The position numbers and the translations under genes are program-made. From Rhizobium tibeticum (GTDB lineage Bacteria > Pseudomonadota > Alphaproteobacteria > Rhizobiales > Rhizobiaceae), in contig NZ_FOCV01000002.1 of the NCBI RefSeq assembly GCF_900110205.1, positions 1 through 64,000 of the forward strand: 64,000 nt of DNA, given 5' to 3'. The notes beneath the pieces were generated by a model. The model saw only the letters and a list, made by a program, of their open reading frames with translations. It made no database searches and had not been told where the DNA came from. Numbering within the stretch: the stretch's first letter is position 1; each line of letters opens with the position of its first letter. Below are positions 2,425 to 37,419 of the stretch, one piece after another.

Positions 2425-3390
2425 CTAGCCCTCGACGGCCGTGCGGATGTCCTTCACGGCCGCGATGATCGAGTGCCGCAGCAACAGCGCCAGCAAGAAC
2501 GCGACCAATGCGAAGCCGCCGATCGCGAGGATGGTCCGCCAGTCCATGCCACCGAGGAAGCCAAGGCCCGTGCTCAAGCCGGTACCAAGTCCGCCGATCC
2601 AGCCGAGCAGGTTGAACTTCTTTTTCACTTGCGTTTCGACGGCGGCCGGCACGACCGGCTTGTCAGCCACAACCGGCGCTGAGACAAAGCCCTGCGCCGT
2701 CGTCGCTCCGGACATCGCCAGCAGCTCCGAGTGGAGCGCAGCACGCGTCTTCGGCCCGACATCACCGTCTGCGACCAGACCCTTGGACGCCTGAAACTCC
2801 CGGATCGCCGTCGGCTTCAGCCCGAGCATCACCAACGTCAGACGCGCAAGGTGCAGGACACGATCGTCAAAGCCGTTCATGCCACCGTTGATCTTCTTGG
2901 TGATCATCTCGATGTCGCCCTGATCAGCGAGGCGATTGAGGTTGCGGCTGTCCCAATACCAGAGCGGCACCAGGCCTTCCCATGGGTCTGTATTGACCAG
3001 ATCCGGATTGGCGACGAAGTTAGGCGGGTTAAGGCCCTTTTCTACGCACCAATCGTAAAACGCCTGGTAGTTCGCCTTACCGGTGAGCTGCATGCCGGTG
3101 CGGCCCATGTACTTCTTGCCGTCGCCGTCAATCGCCGGCGTATTGCCGAGATCCGTGCGCGTGTCGTAGCGGGCCTGCACTGGCGTCGGTCCCCAGATCT
3201 CGCGATCATATCGGAAGTCCCCACTTTCATGCATCAGCTGCGCCAGGTACTGCACGACGCGGTGCACCCGATCCATGCCGAAGTCGTCGCGATACCGATC
3301 GAGCGACACGAGGACAGAATTCATGTTGGTTTCGTTGATAGGCGTGAGAGCGGCCACGCGGATGTGCTGAGCCGTAACGAGTACGTTCAT
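2425..3390 (-). CDS. GH19-type endolysin with peptidoglycan-binding and membrane domains
   Basis: 321 residues. The N-terminal 190 residues look like a glycoside hydrolase 19 (chitinase-like) lysozyme, with the catalytic-Glu region AQLMHESGDFRYDREIWGP and YMGRTGMQLTGKANYQ. Residues about 195-220 form a peptidoglycan-binding repeat (AIREFQASKGLVADGDVGPK). The C-terminus carries a glycine-rich hydrophobic stretch and a clear transmembrane segment (LAIGGFALVAFLLALLLRH). Start at 3390 has TTGGAG 8 bases upstream; an upstream TTG extension is unlikely. It cleaves the cell-wall glycan at lysis. The membrane tail is unusual for a soluble endolysin and may tether it or act holin-like. Confidence 0.85.
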   Translation of the reverse strand: MNVLVTAQHIRVAALTPINETNMNSVLVSLDRYRDDFGMDRVHRVVQYLAQLMHESGDFRYDREIWGPTPVQARYDTRTDLGNTPAIDGDGKKYMGRTGMQLTGKANYQAFYDWCVEKGLNPPNFVANPDLVNTDPWEGLVPLWYWDSRNLNRLADQGDIEMITKKINGGMNGFDDRVLHLARLTLVMLGLKPTAIREFQASKGLVADGDVGPKTRAALHSELLAMSGATTAQGFVSAPVVADKPVVPAAVETQVKKKFNLLGWIGGLGTGLSTGLGFLGGMDWRTILAIGGFALVAFLLALLLRHSIIAAVKDIRTAVEG

Positions 3391-3519
3391 TTGAAAGCTC
3401 CAAGTTTTGATGAAAAATGCCGTCGCCGACAGTGCGCTCGGCGTTAGGCGTGCCACAATTGCGCTGACGTGCAGTTATTGAAAACGGATCACCGGGCGGG
3501 ACGGCGATCCGGCGTCACC

Positions 3520-3951
3520 TCAGCCAGGCCAGACGACCGCATTAGCCGCTGCCTCAGCGTCCGAAGCCGTCGCTGCGGCTTCGATCGAGGCCTTTGTGCC
3601 GAGGCGGGCAGCCTCGATCGCGCTGCCGATGACCTGCCATTGCAGGAAAGCGCCGCTAACGATAGCGGCGACCTCCCCGAGCGTCGGCGCGGTAATCCCG
3701 ACCTCCGCCGACAACAGCGGAAAGTCCGATGGCTCTGGCGTTCCCCCAGCTTCGAGCGCTGCAAAGTAGCGCTTCGCCTCGTCTGACTTCTGCTGGTAGG
3801 TCATGGCCTGCCCAGCGCCGCCGGTGATGTACTTCAGGCGCTCTTCCTCCGCTGCTATATCTATCACAGCTTTCAGACGCGCCTTTACGTCGGCGAGTGG
3901 AGCCGGTTCCGCCGAGCTGTCGGCAATTTTTCCCCAAACCTTCGGAGCCAT
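3520..3951 (-). CDS. Tail-fibre-associated / assembly-like phage protein
   Basis: 143 residues starting at an ATG at 3951 with AAGAGGA 8 bases upstream. It is helical and alanine-rich (PLADVKARLKAVIDIAAEEE; MTYQQKSDEAKRYFAALEAG). Such proteins commonly follow tail-fibre genes in rhizobial prophages and are thought to be small tail or fibre-assembly proteins. Only 13 bases separate it from the tail-fibre gene, so the two are surely co-translated. Exact function is not known from sequence. Confidence 0.6.
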   Translation of the reverse strand: MAPKVWGKIADSSAEPAPLADVKARLKAVIDIAAEEERLKYITGGAGQAMTYQQKSDEAKRYFAALEAGGTPEPSDFPLLSAEVGITAPTLGEVAAIVSGAFLQWQVIGSAIEAARLGTKASIEAAATASDAEAAANAVVWPG

Positions 3952-30603: not shown

Positions 30604-31302
30604 ATGGAGAAATCTGTGACCGACATCCTCAAAGAACTCATTGCCGAGCAAGGGCTTACGTGGGAAGCGGCGGCTTTGAAGAGCGGCTTGGAGCGGAGCT
30701 ATTTTCGCAAGCTCTTCGAGCGCGGAGGCGCATCGCCACGCGGTCAAACGCTCAAAAAGATATCCGATGGCCTTGGCGTTCCGCTGGCGACGCTGCTAGG
30801 CGAATCCATCGACATGTCGAGCTCGACACAACCGACCGTACCCACAAATGATGTCCGCACCGCATCTGCCTCCTTGCCACTGCCGATGGAAATGGTGAAA
30901 GATGTCCCCGTGATGGGCACGGCCGCCGGATCGCATTTGAAAGGCGCCTTCCAGCTTTCGACCGAGCCCGTAGACTATGTGAGGCGTCCGCATACCCTGA
31001 TGAATGCTCGAAATGTATACTCGCTTTACGTCGAAGGCACCTCGATGGAACCGCAGTTCCAGCCAGGCGACCTGATCTATGTGCATCCCGATAAGCCGCC
31101 CCGATTCGGAGACGCCGTCGTCATCCAGTGCCAGTTTAACGCGCATGGCTCGATGGAAGCGACGATCGGCATCCTCAGCAAGCGCGCGCCCGAAACCGTC
31201 ACCATCCGGAAGCATAACCCGACCGCCGAAATCGAGATCCCGCGATCGACCATCGTCGCGATTCACAAGGTGCTGTCGATGAACGAAATCTACGGCGTAT
31301 AG
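30604..31302 (+). CDS. CI-type prophage repressor, S24 autoprotease
   Basis: 232 residues. N-terminal HTH (GLTWEAAALKSGLERSYFRK and TLKKISDGLGVPLATLLG), then a LexA/CI-type S24 domain: putative Ala-Gly cleavage site in VMGTAAGSHLKG, catalytic Ser in VEGTSMEPQFQPGD, and a downstream Lys in GILSKRAPETVTIRKHNP. Self-cleavage after DNA damage would induce the prophage. The ATG at 30604 has no ribosome-binding site and may be leaderless; a GTG at 30616 with GGAG 6 bases upstream is an equally good start. Four matching operators flank the gene. Confidence 0.88.
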   Translation: MEKSVTDILKELIAEQGLTWEAAALKSGLERSYFRKLFERGGASPRGQTLKKISDGLGVPLATLLGESIDMSSSTQPTVPTNDVRTASASLPLPMEMVKDVPVMGTAAGSHLKGAFQLSTEPVDYVRRPHTLMNARNVYSLYVEGTSMEPQFQPGDLIYVHPDKPPRFGDAVVIQCQFNAHGSMEATIGILSKRAPETVTIRKHNPTAEIEIPRSTIVAIHKVLSMNEIYGV

Positions 31303-31396
31303 CCTCACCCATCCGTATTGACGCGCAAAAAGAGCGGCGAAGCGATTCGCCGATCACTTAGTTTTTGCCTCACATTTTCAAAGACATCGGCTGGTA

Positions 31397-31451
31397 TGCG
31401 GTTAAATAGCCGCACACATTGTTGACAGCGGTCATTTATCCGCATTATTGT
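31397..31451 (+). promoter_or_regulatory. Second repressor-controlled promoter, rightward
   Basis: Operators TGCGG-N8-CCGCA at 31397-31414 and AGCGG-N8-CCGCA at 31427-31444. TTGACA (-35) at 31422-31427 and TTATTG or TATTGT (-10) at 31445-31451 have 17-18 bases between, and the second operator fills exactly that spacer, as in the leftward promoter. Transcription would start near 31458 and run into the small genes at 31567-33676. Confidence 0.75.
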
Positions 31452-31458
31452 CCGCAGC

Positions 31459-31540
31459 ATCCGGTCTAAACTCCTCCTCCCAAGCCGGATCGCCTATCGG
31501 GGGCGCGCCGCTGCTCTCTCCTCCTCCCGGAGCAGCGGCG
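31459..31540 (+). ncRNA. Leader RNA or sRNA with two anti-Shine-Dalgarno hairpin loops (alpha-r14-like)
   Basis: Hairpin 1: ATCCGG (31459-31464) pairs with CCGGAT (31485-31490) and its loop holds CTCCTCCTCCC (31471-31481). Hairpin 2: CGCCGCTGCTC (31506-31516) pairs perfectly with GAGCAGCGGCG (31530-31540) and its loop is TCTCCTCCTCCCG. Exposed CCUCCUCCC loops are the hallmark of the rhizobial alpha-r14 (NfeR1/suhB-motif) sRNA family. Here they are downstream of a phage promoter and upstream of a gene with GGGAGG and GGAGAG, so cis control of that gene is also possible. No U-tract follows hairpin 2. Confidence 0.6.
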
Positions 31541-31566
31541 AAACCGGGAGGCGAAGGAGAGCTAAA

Positions 31567-31764
31567 ATGCAGACACAGACCCCCTACCCAGCCGCGATCG
31601 GCCGCAACATCGCCAATGAAATGGCAGAGCACGCGCGGGAGCGCGGCGAGGGCCTGACTTTCAAGGACTACAAGCGCCTCGGCTTCACCGACGCCCAGAT
31701 CATCCGCTACAGCGACGAAGCCGCCGCCATCTACGCCCGCCGCGCGATGCGCCGGGTCGCCTGA
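31567..31764 (+). CDS. Small prophage protein, early rightward operon
   Basis: 65 residues: IGRNIANEMAEHARERGEGL, then TFKDYKRLGFTDAQIIRYSD and a basic tail RRAMRRVA. A good GGAGAG site lies 5 bases before the ATG, and complementary CUCCUCC loops lie in the leader. Such proteins recur in rhizobial prophages next to cI; function unknown. The RLGFTDAQI part might be a small helix-turn-helix. Confidence 0.65.
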   Translation: MQTQTPYPAAIGRNIANEMAEHARERGEGLTFKDYKRLGFTDAQIIRYSDEAAAIYARRAMRRVA

Positions 31765-31835
31765 GATCCGGTTTCGGTCACCGCTCCGACCAGGAACGGA
31801 GCGGGTTCCGAAACGGAAGCGAAAGGGCTCCTCTC

Positions 31836-32009
31836 ATGCAAACGGTCCGGACAGTTCGCCCGACAGCAATCGCGCTGCCGGAAGCGGGTTCGCTTATTCT
31901 GCGCGTCACGCGGATGCCTGTTGAGGATCAGCGTCGTGTCGAGTTCGCATTGTTGTTCATCCTCTCGATCGTCCTCCCGATCGCGATTCTCCTCCAGGTG
32001 CCGGCATGA
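31836..32009 (+). CDS. Small membrane protein (57 aa)
   Basis: 57 residues (too short for usual ORF cut-offs). N-terminal soluble part (ALPEAGSLILRVTRMPVEDQ) and one C-terminal transmembrane segment FALLFILSIVLPIAILLQV. The stop overlaps the next start as ATGA, which supports translation. The ribosome-binding site is a weak AAGGG 10 bases upstream. Unknown function; superinfection exclusion is one possibility for small membrane proteins here. Confidence 0.55.
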   Translation: MQTVRTVRPTAIALPEAGSLILRVTRMPVEDQRRVEFALLFILSIVLPIAILLQVPA

Positions 32010-34279: not shown

Positions 34280-34486
34280 ATGGGACGCCGCGCAGTCATC
34301 CGATCGACGGACATCACCACTACGCTTGCGGCCCTGAAAGCAGCGGGTATCACGCCATTGGCAATGGATACATTGCCAGATGGTGGCATGCGATGGCATT
34401 TTACGCCGCCGGGAAAGCCGGATGAGGACGAGCTCGATCGCGAGCTAAGGGACTTTGAAGAGCGCAATGGTCGAAATAGAGCTTAA
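34280..34486 (+). CDS. Small protein upstream of integrase
   Basis: 68 residues from ATG 34280, with GGAGG about 8 bases upstream. RRAVIRSTDITTTLAALKAA, then GITPLAMDTLPDGGMRWHFT, ends in a very acidic/basic tail. It overlaps the integrase gene by 20 bases. Excisionases often occupy this position, but there is no MerR/AlpA-type HTH, so an Xis role is only a guess. Confidence 0.55.
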   Translation: MGRRAVIRSTDITTTLAALKAAGITPLAMDTLPDGGMRWHFTPPGKPDEDELDRELRDFEERNGRNRA

Positions 34487-35528
34487 AGGCATCCACACCG
34501 TCAAAGCCAAGGGCAAGATTTATTATTACGCTTGGCGCGGCGGGCCGGCGCTCAAAGGCCTTCCCGGCTCGTTCGAATTCATGAAGTCCTACAACGAGGC
34601 AATCGCCGAGCGGCGTGCGCCCGAGGACGGAAAGTTTAAGTCGGTCATCGCCCACTACAAAACTCATGAATTCGGCAAGCTGGCCTCATCTACCAGGCGC
34701 GTTTGGTCGCCTTGGCTCGATAAGATCGGGAAACGGTTCGGCGATCTGAGCATTGCGCAGTTCAATAGACCTGAGAAAATTCGGCCAAGCATCATCCGTT
34801 GGCGCAGCGAGTATTCCGAGACCCCTCGCACAGCGGATCTCGCGCTGCAGGTGCTATCGCGACTATTGTCGCACGCTGTCGATCCCATGGGAAAAATAGC
34901 GTCAAACCCTTGCGAAGGCATACGGCACCTCTACAGCCAATCTCGCGCTGAGATCATCTGGACTGCTGACGACATCGCTCAGCTGAAAACGGAGGCGTCC
35001 AAGGAAGTTGCACTTGCCGTCGATCTCGCAGCCCATACCGGATTGCGGGTTGGCGATCTTGTTCGCCTAGCATGGTCCCACATCGGGAGGGACGCAATTG
35101 TGATTTCCACCGGCAAGAGCAAACACAGGAAAGAAGCGGTGATCCCTCGATACGACGCTTTGAACGAGCTGCTCGACCGCATCCCGAAGAACTCGCCGAT
35201 AATCCTCACCAACAGCCGCAAGCGACCTTGGACGCAAGACGGCCTCGCTAGCTCGTTCTGGACCGCAAAGGTCGAAGCGCACATGCAGGAACGCGACCTA
35301 CACTTTCACGATCTGCGAGGCACCGCCGCGACAAACTTCTACACTGCCGGTCTGTCGATCCGGGTGATTGCTGAAATTATGGGCTGGGAAGAAGATCAGG
35401 TGGAGAAGATTATTCGTCGATATGTCAGCCGAGGTGCTGCGACGAGGGAGGCGATTCGCCAACTCAACGAAGCGCGAGAGAAGAAAACCGCGGCTTCGAA
35501 AAGCACGAACGACGAACAGGCGCTGTAA
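34467..35528 (+). CDS. int: Tyrosine site-specific integrase
   Basis: 353 residues from ATG 34467. N-terminal arm-binding part (YYYAWRGGPALKGLPGSFEF), SAM-like core-binding domain to about residue 150, then the catalytic domain with AAHTGLRVGDLVRLAW (first Arg), the Lys in TGKSKHRKEAVIP, HFHDLRGTAATNF (HxxR), GWEEDQ, and the nucleophile Tyr in IIRRYVSRG. All catalytic residues appear present. The gene ends 65 bases from the tRNA-Gly 3' end, consistent with attachment in that tRNA. Confidence 0.9.
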   Translation: MVEIELKGIHTVKAKGKIYYYAWRGGPALKGLPGSFEFMKSYNEAIAERRAPEDGKFKSVIAHYKTHEFGKLASSTRRVWSPWLDKIGKRFGDLSIAQFNRPEKIRPSIIRWRSEYSETPRTADLALQVLSRLLSHAVDPMGKIASNPCEGIRHLYSQSRAEIIWTADDIAQLKTEASKEVALAVDLAAHTGLRVGDLVRLAWSHIGRDAIVISTGKSKHRKEAVIPRYDALNELLDRIPKNSPIILTNSRKRPWTQDGLASSFWTAKVEAHMQERDLHFHDLRGTAATNFYTAGLSIRVIAEIMGWEEDQVEKIIRRYVSRGAATREAIRQLNEAREKKTAASKSTNDEQAL

Positions 35529-35593: not shown

Positions 35594-35667
35594 TGGAGCG
35601 GGTGAAGGGAATCGAACCCTCGTATTCAGCTTGGGAAGCTGCTGCTCTACCATTGAGCTACACCCGC
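35594..35667 (-). tRNA. tRNA-Gly (anticodon CCC)
   Basis: On the minus strand the sequence starts GCGGGTGTAGCTCAATGG and folds as a cloverleaf: acceptor GCGGGTG/CACCCGC, D arm GCTC...GAGC, anticodon loop TTCCCAA (CCC), T loop TTCGATT, and an encoded CCA end at 35596-35594. It reads glycine GGG codons. Its 3' end faces the prophage integrase, so it is the probable attB. A TTGACA at 35706-35701 (minus strand) with a weak -10 would start transcription about 4 bases before the tRNA. Confidence 0.95.
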
Positions 35668-37242: not shown

Positions 37243-37323
37243 CATGCCTCATCCATCTTTGTCGCAGACAAAACCAAACTCAAGGAATTGACGCAAGCAT
37301 AGAACGGCAGTATTGCAGCTTTA

Positions 37324-37377
37324 TCCCGTGGTGATTTGGCCGGTCGGCTTGCAGCCACGTTAAACAAGTGGCTAAAA
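37324..37377 (+). promoter_or_regulatory. SAM-II riboswitch upstream of metZ
   Basis: The stretch has the SAM-II (metA motif) consensus: GTGGTGATTTGGCCGGTC, then GGCTTGCAGCCACGTTAAAC, then AAGTGGCTAAAA, in the right order and spacing to form the H-type pseudoknot that binds S-adenosylmethionine. It precedes metZ by 64 bases, and this placement before met genes is the known use in Rhizobiales. SAM binding would lower metZ expression. Confidence 0.92.
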
Positions 37378-37378
37378 G

Positions 37379-37419
37379 GACCGGGTGCAAAACCGGTCTG
37401 CTTTCGCGGCCGGTTTTTT
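37379..37419 (+). terminator. Expression platform with competing hairpins and U-tract
   Basis: GACCGG (37379-37384) can pair with CCGGTC (37393-37398), or AACCGG (37391-37396) can pair with CCGGTT (37410-37415) followed by TTTTTT (37414-37419). The two hairpins share 37393-37396 and exclude each other, like an antiterminator/terminator pair directly after the SAM-II aptamer. The terminator loop is 13 bases. Confidence 0.6.

Follow-up and report, generated by a model that had tools for sequence, protein, structure and literature searches.

The DNA analysed here, a stretch of 64,000 nucleotides from Rhizobium tibeticum (hereafter the window), contains a leader RNA sequence directly downstream of a repressor-type promoter, and two of the hairpins of this RNA present anti-Shine-Dalgarno sequences in their loops. 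Comparison with related phages and prophages gives good support to its being a conserved phage leader RNA. We put at about one half the chance that in temperate Rhizobium phages it acts in cis to control how the first early gene is translated. The preliminary description of this DNA had offered two readings, a phage-made sRNA that reshapes host translation at induction or a leader that masks the ribosome-binding site of the first early gene, and it is the masking leader that has somewhat more support.

The window gene upstream of the leader (30604..31302, + strand) encodes a CI-type repressor with HTH_3 and Peptidase_S24 domains (Pfam; phrog_4, transcriptional repressor). Between it and the leader is a promoter/operator region (31398..31451, + strand, from the sequence and a promoter scan), in which two GCGG-N8-CCGC palindromes (31398-31413 and 31428-31443) overlap a promoter-like site with -35 TTGACA (31422-31427) and -10 TATTGT (31446-31451); transcription is predicted to start at about 31457-31459, where the leader begins. 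This TTGACA/TATTGT pair, with 10/12 matches, is the sole promoter-like site that the scan found in 31300-31900 (shuffled sequences gave a mean of 0.0). Beyond the leader are a purine tract GGGAGG (31546-31551, + strand) and a Shine-Dalgarno sequence GGAGAG (31556-31561, + strand), both present ahead of the first early gene's ATG (31567) as the preliminary description had it. That gene (31567..31764, + strand) encodes a 65-amino-acid protein that has no Pfam match and matches phrog_22869 (unknown function, E 3e-4); a profile search finds 106 relatives, those with names being nearly all hypothetical proteins and mostly from Rhizobium. Further downstream are an integrase gene (34455..35528, + strand; PF00589 in Pfam, phrog_1) and, adjoining it, a tRNA-Gly(CCC) gene (35594-35667, ARAGORN). 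With the CI-type repressor upstream and the integrase on the same strand downstream, the leader opens the integrase-side early operon, which we take to be comparable in place to the λ PL operon.

Among ten related loci, six have a repressor like that of the window upstream and four an integrase like that of the window downstream (E 1e-3); loci L072, L221 and L223 have HTH/S24 proteins upstream that the repressor similarity comparison missed. The L060 operon encodes a DNA polymerase III beta-clamp homologue (Pfam), and by sequence likeness to L060 so do the early operons of L065, L217, L221 and L223. Two further elements of the window may be mentioned here. Between the first and second early genes is another stretch that resembles a hairpin (31758-31837); a 60-bp part (31758-31817) has an 86.9% match in phage PPF1, and sequences that by eye resemble it come after the first gene in related loci. 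A SAM_alpha riboswitch (37318-37396, 79.2 bits) is found beyond the integrase/tRNA end of the prophage.

Hairpin 1 of the leader (31459-31490, + strand) has a stem of ATCCGG (31459-31464) and CCGGAT (31485-31490), and its loop (31465-31484) displays CTCCTCCTCCC at 31471-31481. It is followed on the same strand by a linker with a small hairpin, h2 (31491-31505; CGCC at 31491-31494 and GGCG at 31502-31505), a segment that can alternatively pair with the sequence just past hairpin 3. Hairpin 3 (31506-31540, + strand) is built on a perfect 11-bp stem, CGCCGCTGCTC (31506-31516) with GAGCAGCGGCG (31530-31540), plus one G-U pair, and its loop displays the same 11-mer at 31518-31528. The sequence thus bears out the earlier account of two hairpins with this motif behind a repressor-controlled promoter, one of them on a perfect 11-bp stem. 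In the 7.06-Mb genome the 11-mer occurs 15 times, versus five times for the reversed control; ten of the 15 are in alpha-r14 loci above the Rfam cut-off, two in the leader and three elsewhere. The folding energy of the 161-nt leader stretch taken alone is ordinary (z -1.03), so the case rests on conservation and covariation.

Relatives of the leader were collected through the first gene, through sequence patterns and with a covariance model built from seven leaders. When 300 related genomes were searched with the 65-amino-acid protein, 18 of them had matches, at 20 places including its own, and at nine of these 20 both hairpins stand upstream of the first gene. The model finds the leader in at least 12 of 148 genomes of the genus (E 0.001), a lower bound because it misses two genus leaders known via the first gene (in genomes G116 and G044). 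Of 297 genomes sampled from the family, just two gave the leader, both of that same genus. An order-level pattern matched in 7 of 397 genomes, two of the matches being real (that of the window's own genome and that of G029); the other five lack CCTCCC and were rejected on visual inspection. A pattern scan of contigs gave at least three leaders that the model confirms (L087, L106 and L112), from records titled Rhizobium altiplani, Rhizobium metallidurans and a Rhizobiales bacterium, with 12 matches scored by the model among the 80 listed of 119; judged by title, the matches listed are mostly chance ones in unrelated GC-rich genomes. Three sets of viral pattern loci scored as leaders in 9 of 19, 7 of 10 (L196, L197 and L198 being set aside by eye) and 10 of 10 cases, respectively, three of the last set being copies of known ones. 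One viral leader belongs to a named phage, Rhizobium phage vB_RleM_PPF1 (KJ746502.1, our locus L213; 34.3 bits, E 1.2e-5). The open-access literature yielded no paper on phage PPF1 itself and none that describes loops of this kind in the leader of a phage or prophage, although such a paper may exist in print. In all, 30 distinct leaders were compared: 26 at E <=0.001, plus L236, L240 and L255, plus L256, which scores just 14.8 bits (E 0.75) and is counted as a leader by eye.

The loop 1 sequence CCTCCC is kept in 29 of these 30 leaders and that of loop 3 in 21 (PPF1 is among the nine that lack it), counts that are biased because two of the viral patterns demand the pyrimidine motif in loop 1 and the model itself contains the loops. 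In samples that were not chosen by the loop, loop 1 has CCTCCC in 8/9 leaders sampled by the first gene in genomes, in 8/9 genus leaders from a loop-agnostic pattern and in all 12 leaders (L256 included) among 25 viral-contig loci found by the first gene; these three samples overlap, and L031 is the exception in both of the 8/9 samples. In all 30 leaders the 35 nt past hairpin 3 hold one or more runs of at least five purines.

When 26 leaders are aligned to the model, 98.1% of cells hold standard pairs; this alignment was fitted to the proposed structure and hence leans towards it. In hairpin 3 every cell is paired (100%) and 7 of the 11 pairs carry both-sided (compensatory) changes, hairpin 1 shows one-sided changes in 2 of 6 pairs with none broken, the small hairpin h2 has 87.8% of cells paired, and UCCGG at the 5' end of the leader is invariant (26/26). 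RNAalifold, given the same alignment, recovers hairpins 1 and 3 but not the small hairpin. In swap tests the linker prefers its own post-hairpin-3 stretch to those of other leaders, pairing at -9.57 versus -7.83 kcal/mol in 12 representatives (p 0.0007) and -8.22 versus -6.77 kcal/mol in 15 (p 0.003); these are two of seven swap tests, one of which, on the hairpin 3 stem, was a positive control (p 5e-5). The comparison with homologous prophages, on which the preliminary description had staked its reading, therefore finds both loops and stems conserved.

The boundary of the conserved module sits at the promoter. The best promoter-like site ends 7-9 nt ahead of TCCGG in 17 of 20 leaders and the best-scoring one is elsewhere in L050, L028 and L030. 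Leaders L029 and L030 are 99% identical, while the 62 nt upstream of them are 61% identical, and other pairs with unlike upstream regions range there from 58 to 69%; between the window and L050 the identity is 90% in the leader, 69% downstream and 63% upstream. The leader is more alike than the following 180 nt in 10 of 10 chosen pairs, barely so in the L044 pair, with values from 0.81 versus 0.80 (L044) to 0.93 versus 0.71 (L026). Conservation of the RNA thus equals or exceeds that of the gene that follows, and the RNA travels between different promoters.

As would be expected of a cis-acting leader, the RNA lies between the predicted promoter and the ribosome-binding site and contains an element complementary to that site, with which it is predicted to pair. 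In nested folding, pairing of loop 1 with the 42 nt past hairpin 3 (the ribosome-binding site being inside) is favoured over hairpin 1 in 30/30 leaders, by a mean of 5.0 kcal/mol (range 0.6 to 9.0), where the preference is the cost of forbidding the loop 1/42-nt pairing compared with the cost of forbidding hairpin 1. With the natural order of bases in loop 1 this pairing is worth 5.3 kcal/mol, versus 3.8 for shuffled loops, with 14 of 20 leaders above the shuffled mean (Wilcoxon p 0.006, which is optimistic because the leaders are related). In favour of the cis reading, loop 1, which can make such pairs, is also better kept (CCTCCC in 29/30) than loop 3 (21/30), which makes none in these 20 leaders. 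Minimum-energy folds pair loop 1 with the ribosome-binding-site region in 8 of 10 cases, the exceptions being L044 and the 112-nt stretch of the window, in which hairpin 1 is kept and the linker pairs with the post-hairpin-3 stretch; in a 161-nt stretch of the window, loop 1 does pair with the ribosome-binding site, and the outcome thus varies with the length that is folded. That loop 1 pairs with this region is a prediction from folding. Swapping ribosome-binding sites among leaders gave no significant preference of loop 1 for its own site (p 0.18 with 12 representatives, 0.20 with 15) or of loop 3 (p 0.14 and 0.94, respectively). In L031, the one leader whose loop 1 departs from CCTCCC, the loop holds CCATCCCC and the ribosome-binding site TGGGGACGATGG, a match within chance (209 of 2000 shuffles are as good).

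A relative of the first gene begins 21-36 nt past hairpin 3 in 27 of the 30 leaders. In the other three (L055, PPF1 and L219) it begins 447-462 nt past hairpin 3, and loop 1 is kept in all of them. In PPF1 an oppositely oriented gene, PPF1_73, stands between the leader and the first-gene homologue (KJ746502.1, about 3243-3620); the L219 gap holds a 116-codon antisense frame, and L055 has none among its two longest listed frames. That loop 1 persists across about 450 nt of intervening sequence points to a recent insertion or else to a leader function independent of the next gene.

There are two other classes of leader. In favour of the cis reading, hairpin-less leaders of the first-gene family have UCCAUCC near the 5' end, 7 nt complementary to their own GGAUGGA Shine-Dalgarno sequence, in L242, L244, L246, L248, L254 and L042 (29 to 73 of 5000 shuffles are as good), and L041 has ACCAUCC, complementary over 6 nt; these seven are close relatives, the match was found by looking, and six of them were picked by that motif. 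The further class (L247, L249, L250, L251, L252 and L253) has two hairpins without anti-Shine-Dalgarno loops; its loop TTGCGTACGCA (TTGCGGACGCA in L252) is partly complementary to ACGCAA before the Shine-Dalgarno sequence, and the loop/ribosome-binding-site matches are within chance in L250 (307 of 3000 shuffles as good), L247 (355 of 3000) and L252 (931 of 3000).

Under the cis-acting reading, transcription would begin at hairpin 1 once the repressor lets go, and hairpin 1 would fold first, holding the anti-Shine-Dalgarno stretch in its loop. After transcription has passed the purine tracts and ribosome-binding site, loop 1 would pair with them, either with hairpin 1 opened or as a pseudoknot, so that translation might be confined to young RNA or might wait until some factor holds the leader open. 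Hairpin 3, together with its extension, would be a spacer between loop 1 and its partners at the ribosome-binding site. We infer this timing, the pseudoknot alternative and the biological role of the leader.

The preliminary description compared the loops with the hallmark of the alpha-r14/NfeR1 sRNAs. According to two papers on them, each of the three hairpins of an alpha-r14 RNA presents CCUCCUCCC unpaired, and it is through such motifs that NfeR1 pairs with translation initiation regions and silences mRNAs (PMC10746234, PMC7143759). The likeness holds in that the motif is in both loops and that, among Rfam families, alpha-r14 and CcsR1 are the best two matches over the stretch, both below threshold. 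It fails in score (26.5 bits against Rfam alpha-r14, RF02344, with a cut-off of 58.8) and in the lack of a third, terminator-like hairpin. The six alpha-r14 loci in the same host genome score 88.7-116.5 bits, and each ends in a terminator-like hairpin whose loop, as read and folded, also has CCTCC. As an alpha-r14 RNA the leader was rejected, being below the cut-off and having two motif hairpins rather than three, with h2 lacking the motif; nor is it a stand-alone alpha-r14 RNA, since purine tracts and an open reading frame come after hairpin 3 and no terminator-like site was found on the + strand of 31300-31900. Its score, together with the ribosome-binding site and gene that replace the terminator hairpin, makes it alpha-r14-like, not alpha-r14. 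What it does share with these "cuckoo RNAs" is a constant CCUCCUCCC loop on changing stems (here loop 1 in 29/30 leaders, with stem 3 compensatory at 7/11 pairs); it differs from them in its two such hairpins, phage repressor control, lack of a terminator hairpin and the ribosome-binding site and gene that come next. CcsR1 (RF02791) likewise has a hairpin with a CCUCCUCCC loop, and the leader was rejected as a member at 19.6 bits against a cut-off of 65.3. The search with suhB and alpha-r14 models that had been suggested thus failed to place the leader in either family: suhB (RF00519) has no match in the window at its gathering score of 41 bits and is absent up to E 10 in 31380-31840, three host loci elsewhere pass its gathering score, and the leader reaches no Rfam gathering score at all. 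Two other loci came to light in these searches. One, L230 (G000:C140:67018-67120), resembles alpha-r14 weakly (26.6 bits), and about 570 bp away on the same strand is an alpha-r14 copy that passes the cut-off; the other, L016 (G000:C120), has a hairpin pair with CTCCTCCTCCC and CTCCTCCTCC followed by a terminator-like hairpin and is not among the alpha-r14 matches at E 0.05.

A different reading, which we regard as possible but somewhat unlikely, is that the leader, perhaps cut from the mRNA, acts in trans as an sRNA that pairs with host or phage ribosome-binding sites at induction, much as NfeR1 does. The match of its loops to the alpha-r14 motif (PMC10746234), the two sub-threshold Rfam matches at the top of the ranking and the constancy of the loops on changing stems all favour this. 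So do the folds, in that loop 3 makes no pairs with the ribosome-binding-site region in the nested folds of 20 leaders and would be free, and so does the retention of the leader in the 3 of 30 cases where the first gene is displaced. There is also no excess of cis masking over shuffled leaders, the mean energy for opening the Shine-Dalgarno sequence being 5.67 kcal/mol versus 5.43 for dinucleotide-shuffled leaders (17 leaders), a result that also counts against the cis reading. On the other hand, a scan of the + strand of 31300-31900 found no terminator-like site, the purine tracts lie past hairpin 3 in 30/30 leaders with the first gene directly next in 27/30, and the loop 3 CCTCCC is missing in 9/30 and the alpha-r14 cut-off is not reached.

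It is quite unlikely that the leader serves antitermination or RNA stability, acting on RNA polymerase or guarding the 5' end of the transcript, with loops that are incidental or bind protein. Its position at the start of the early-operon transcript behind different promoters and repressors, and its invariant 5' UCCGG (26/26), would fit such a role, but conservation of the loops is unexpected for sites of this kind. The HK022 put and λ nut sites, which act on RNA polymerase, are known in both early operons, whereas the whole window has a single leader match and none in the divergent operon. A combination in which loop 1 exerts cis control and loop 3 has a trans or decoy role, for example in competing with host alpha-r14 for targets or Hfq, seems improbable to us; the two loops do behave differently and the same genome has six alpha-r14 loci, but the CCTCCC of loop 3 is absent from nine of the 30 leaders, that of PPF1 included. 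That the loops are functionless chance pyrimidine stretches in GC-rich hairpins is highly improbable: the folding energy alone is ordinary, but the compensatory changes, the conservation of the leader above that of the gene and the persistence of the loops in samples not chosen by them all speak against it.

Phage leaders of comparable design are known. The c4 antisense RNA of phages P1 and P7 is a phage leader in which both loops have complements around the ribosome-binding site of the next gene; it is made from a constitutive promoter and excised from its transcript. The Rhizobium leader resembles it in having phage leader loops complementary to the next ribosome-binding site, a likeness of arrangement, and differs in that its promoter is repressor-controlled; there is no c4 family among the nine Rfam matches over the leader stretch up to E 10. 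The maturation gene leader of phage MS2 is metastable, early folding leaving the ribosome-binding site open and later folding closing it. The leader proposed here would be like it in having a site that is open early and closed late; the sequences are unrelated as far as we know.

In the genome samples searched, the leader is found only within one genus, and its presence in PPF1 places it in a named phage. It joins two things that are usually apart, the ribosome-blocking loops of sRNAs and the leader of a phage early operon. A broader role, which we consider doubtful, would make it a portable anti-Shine-Dalgarno riboregulator that is swapped between immunity regions and mimics the host alpha-r14, timing translation of the first gene and, when processed, competing with or replacing alpha-r14 on host mRNAs at induction. 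The leader offers a direct test of whether phages apply the riboregulatory code of their host to themselves or to the host.
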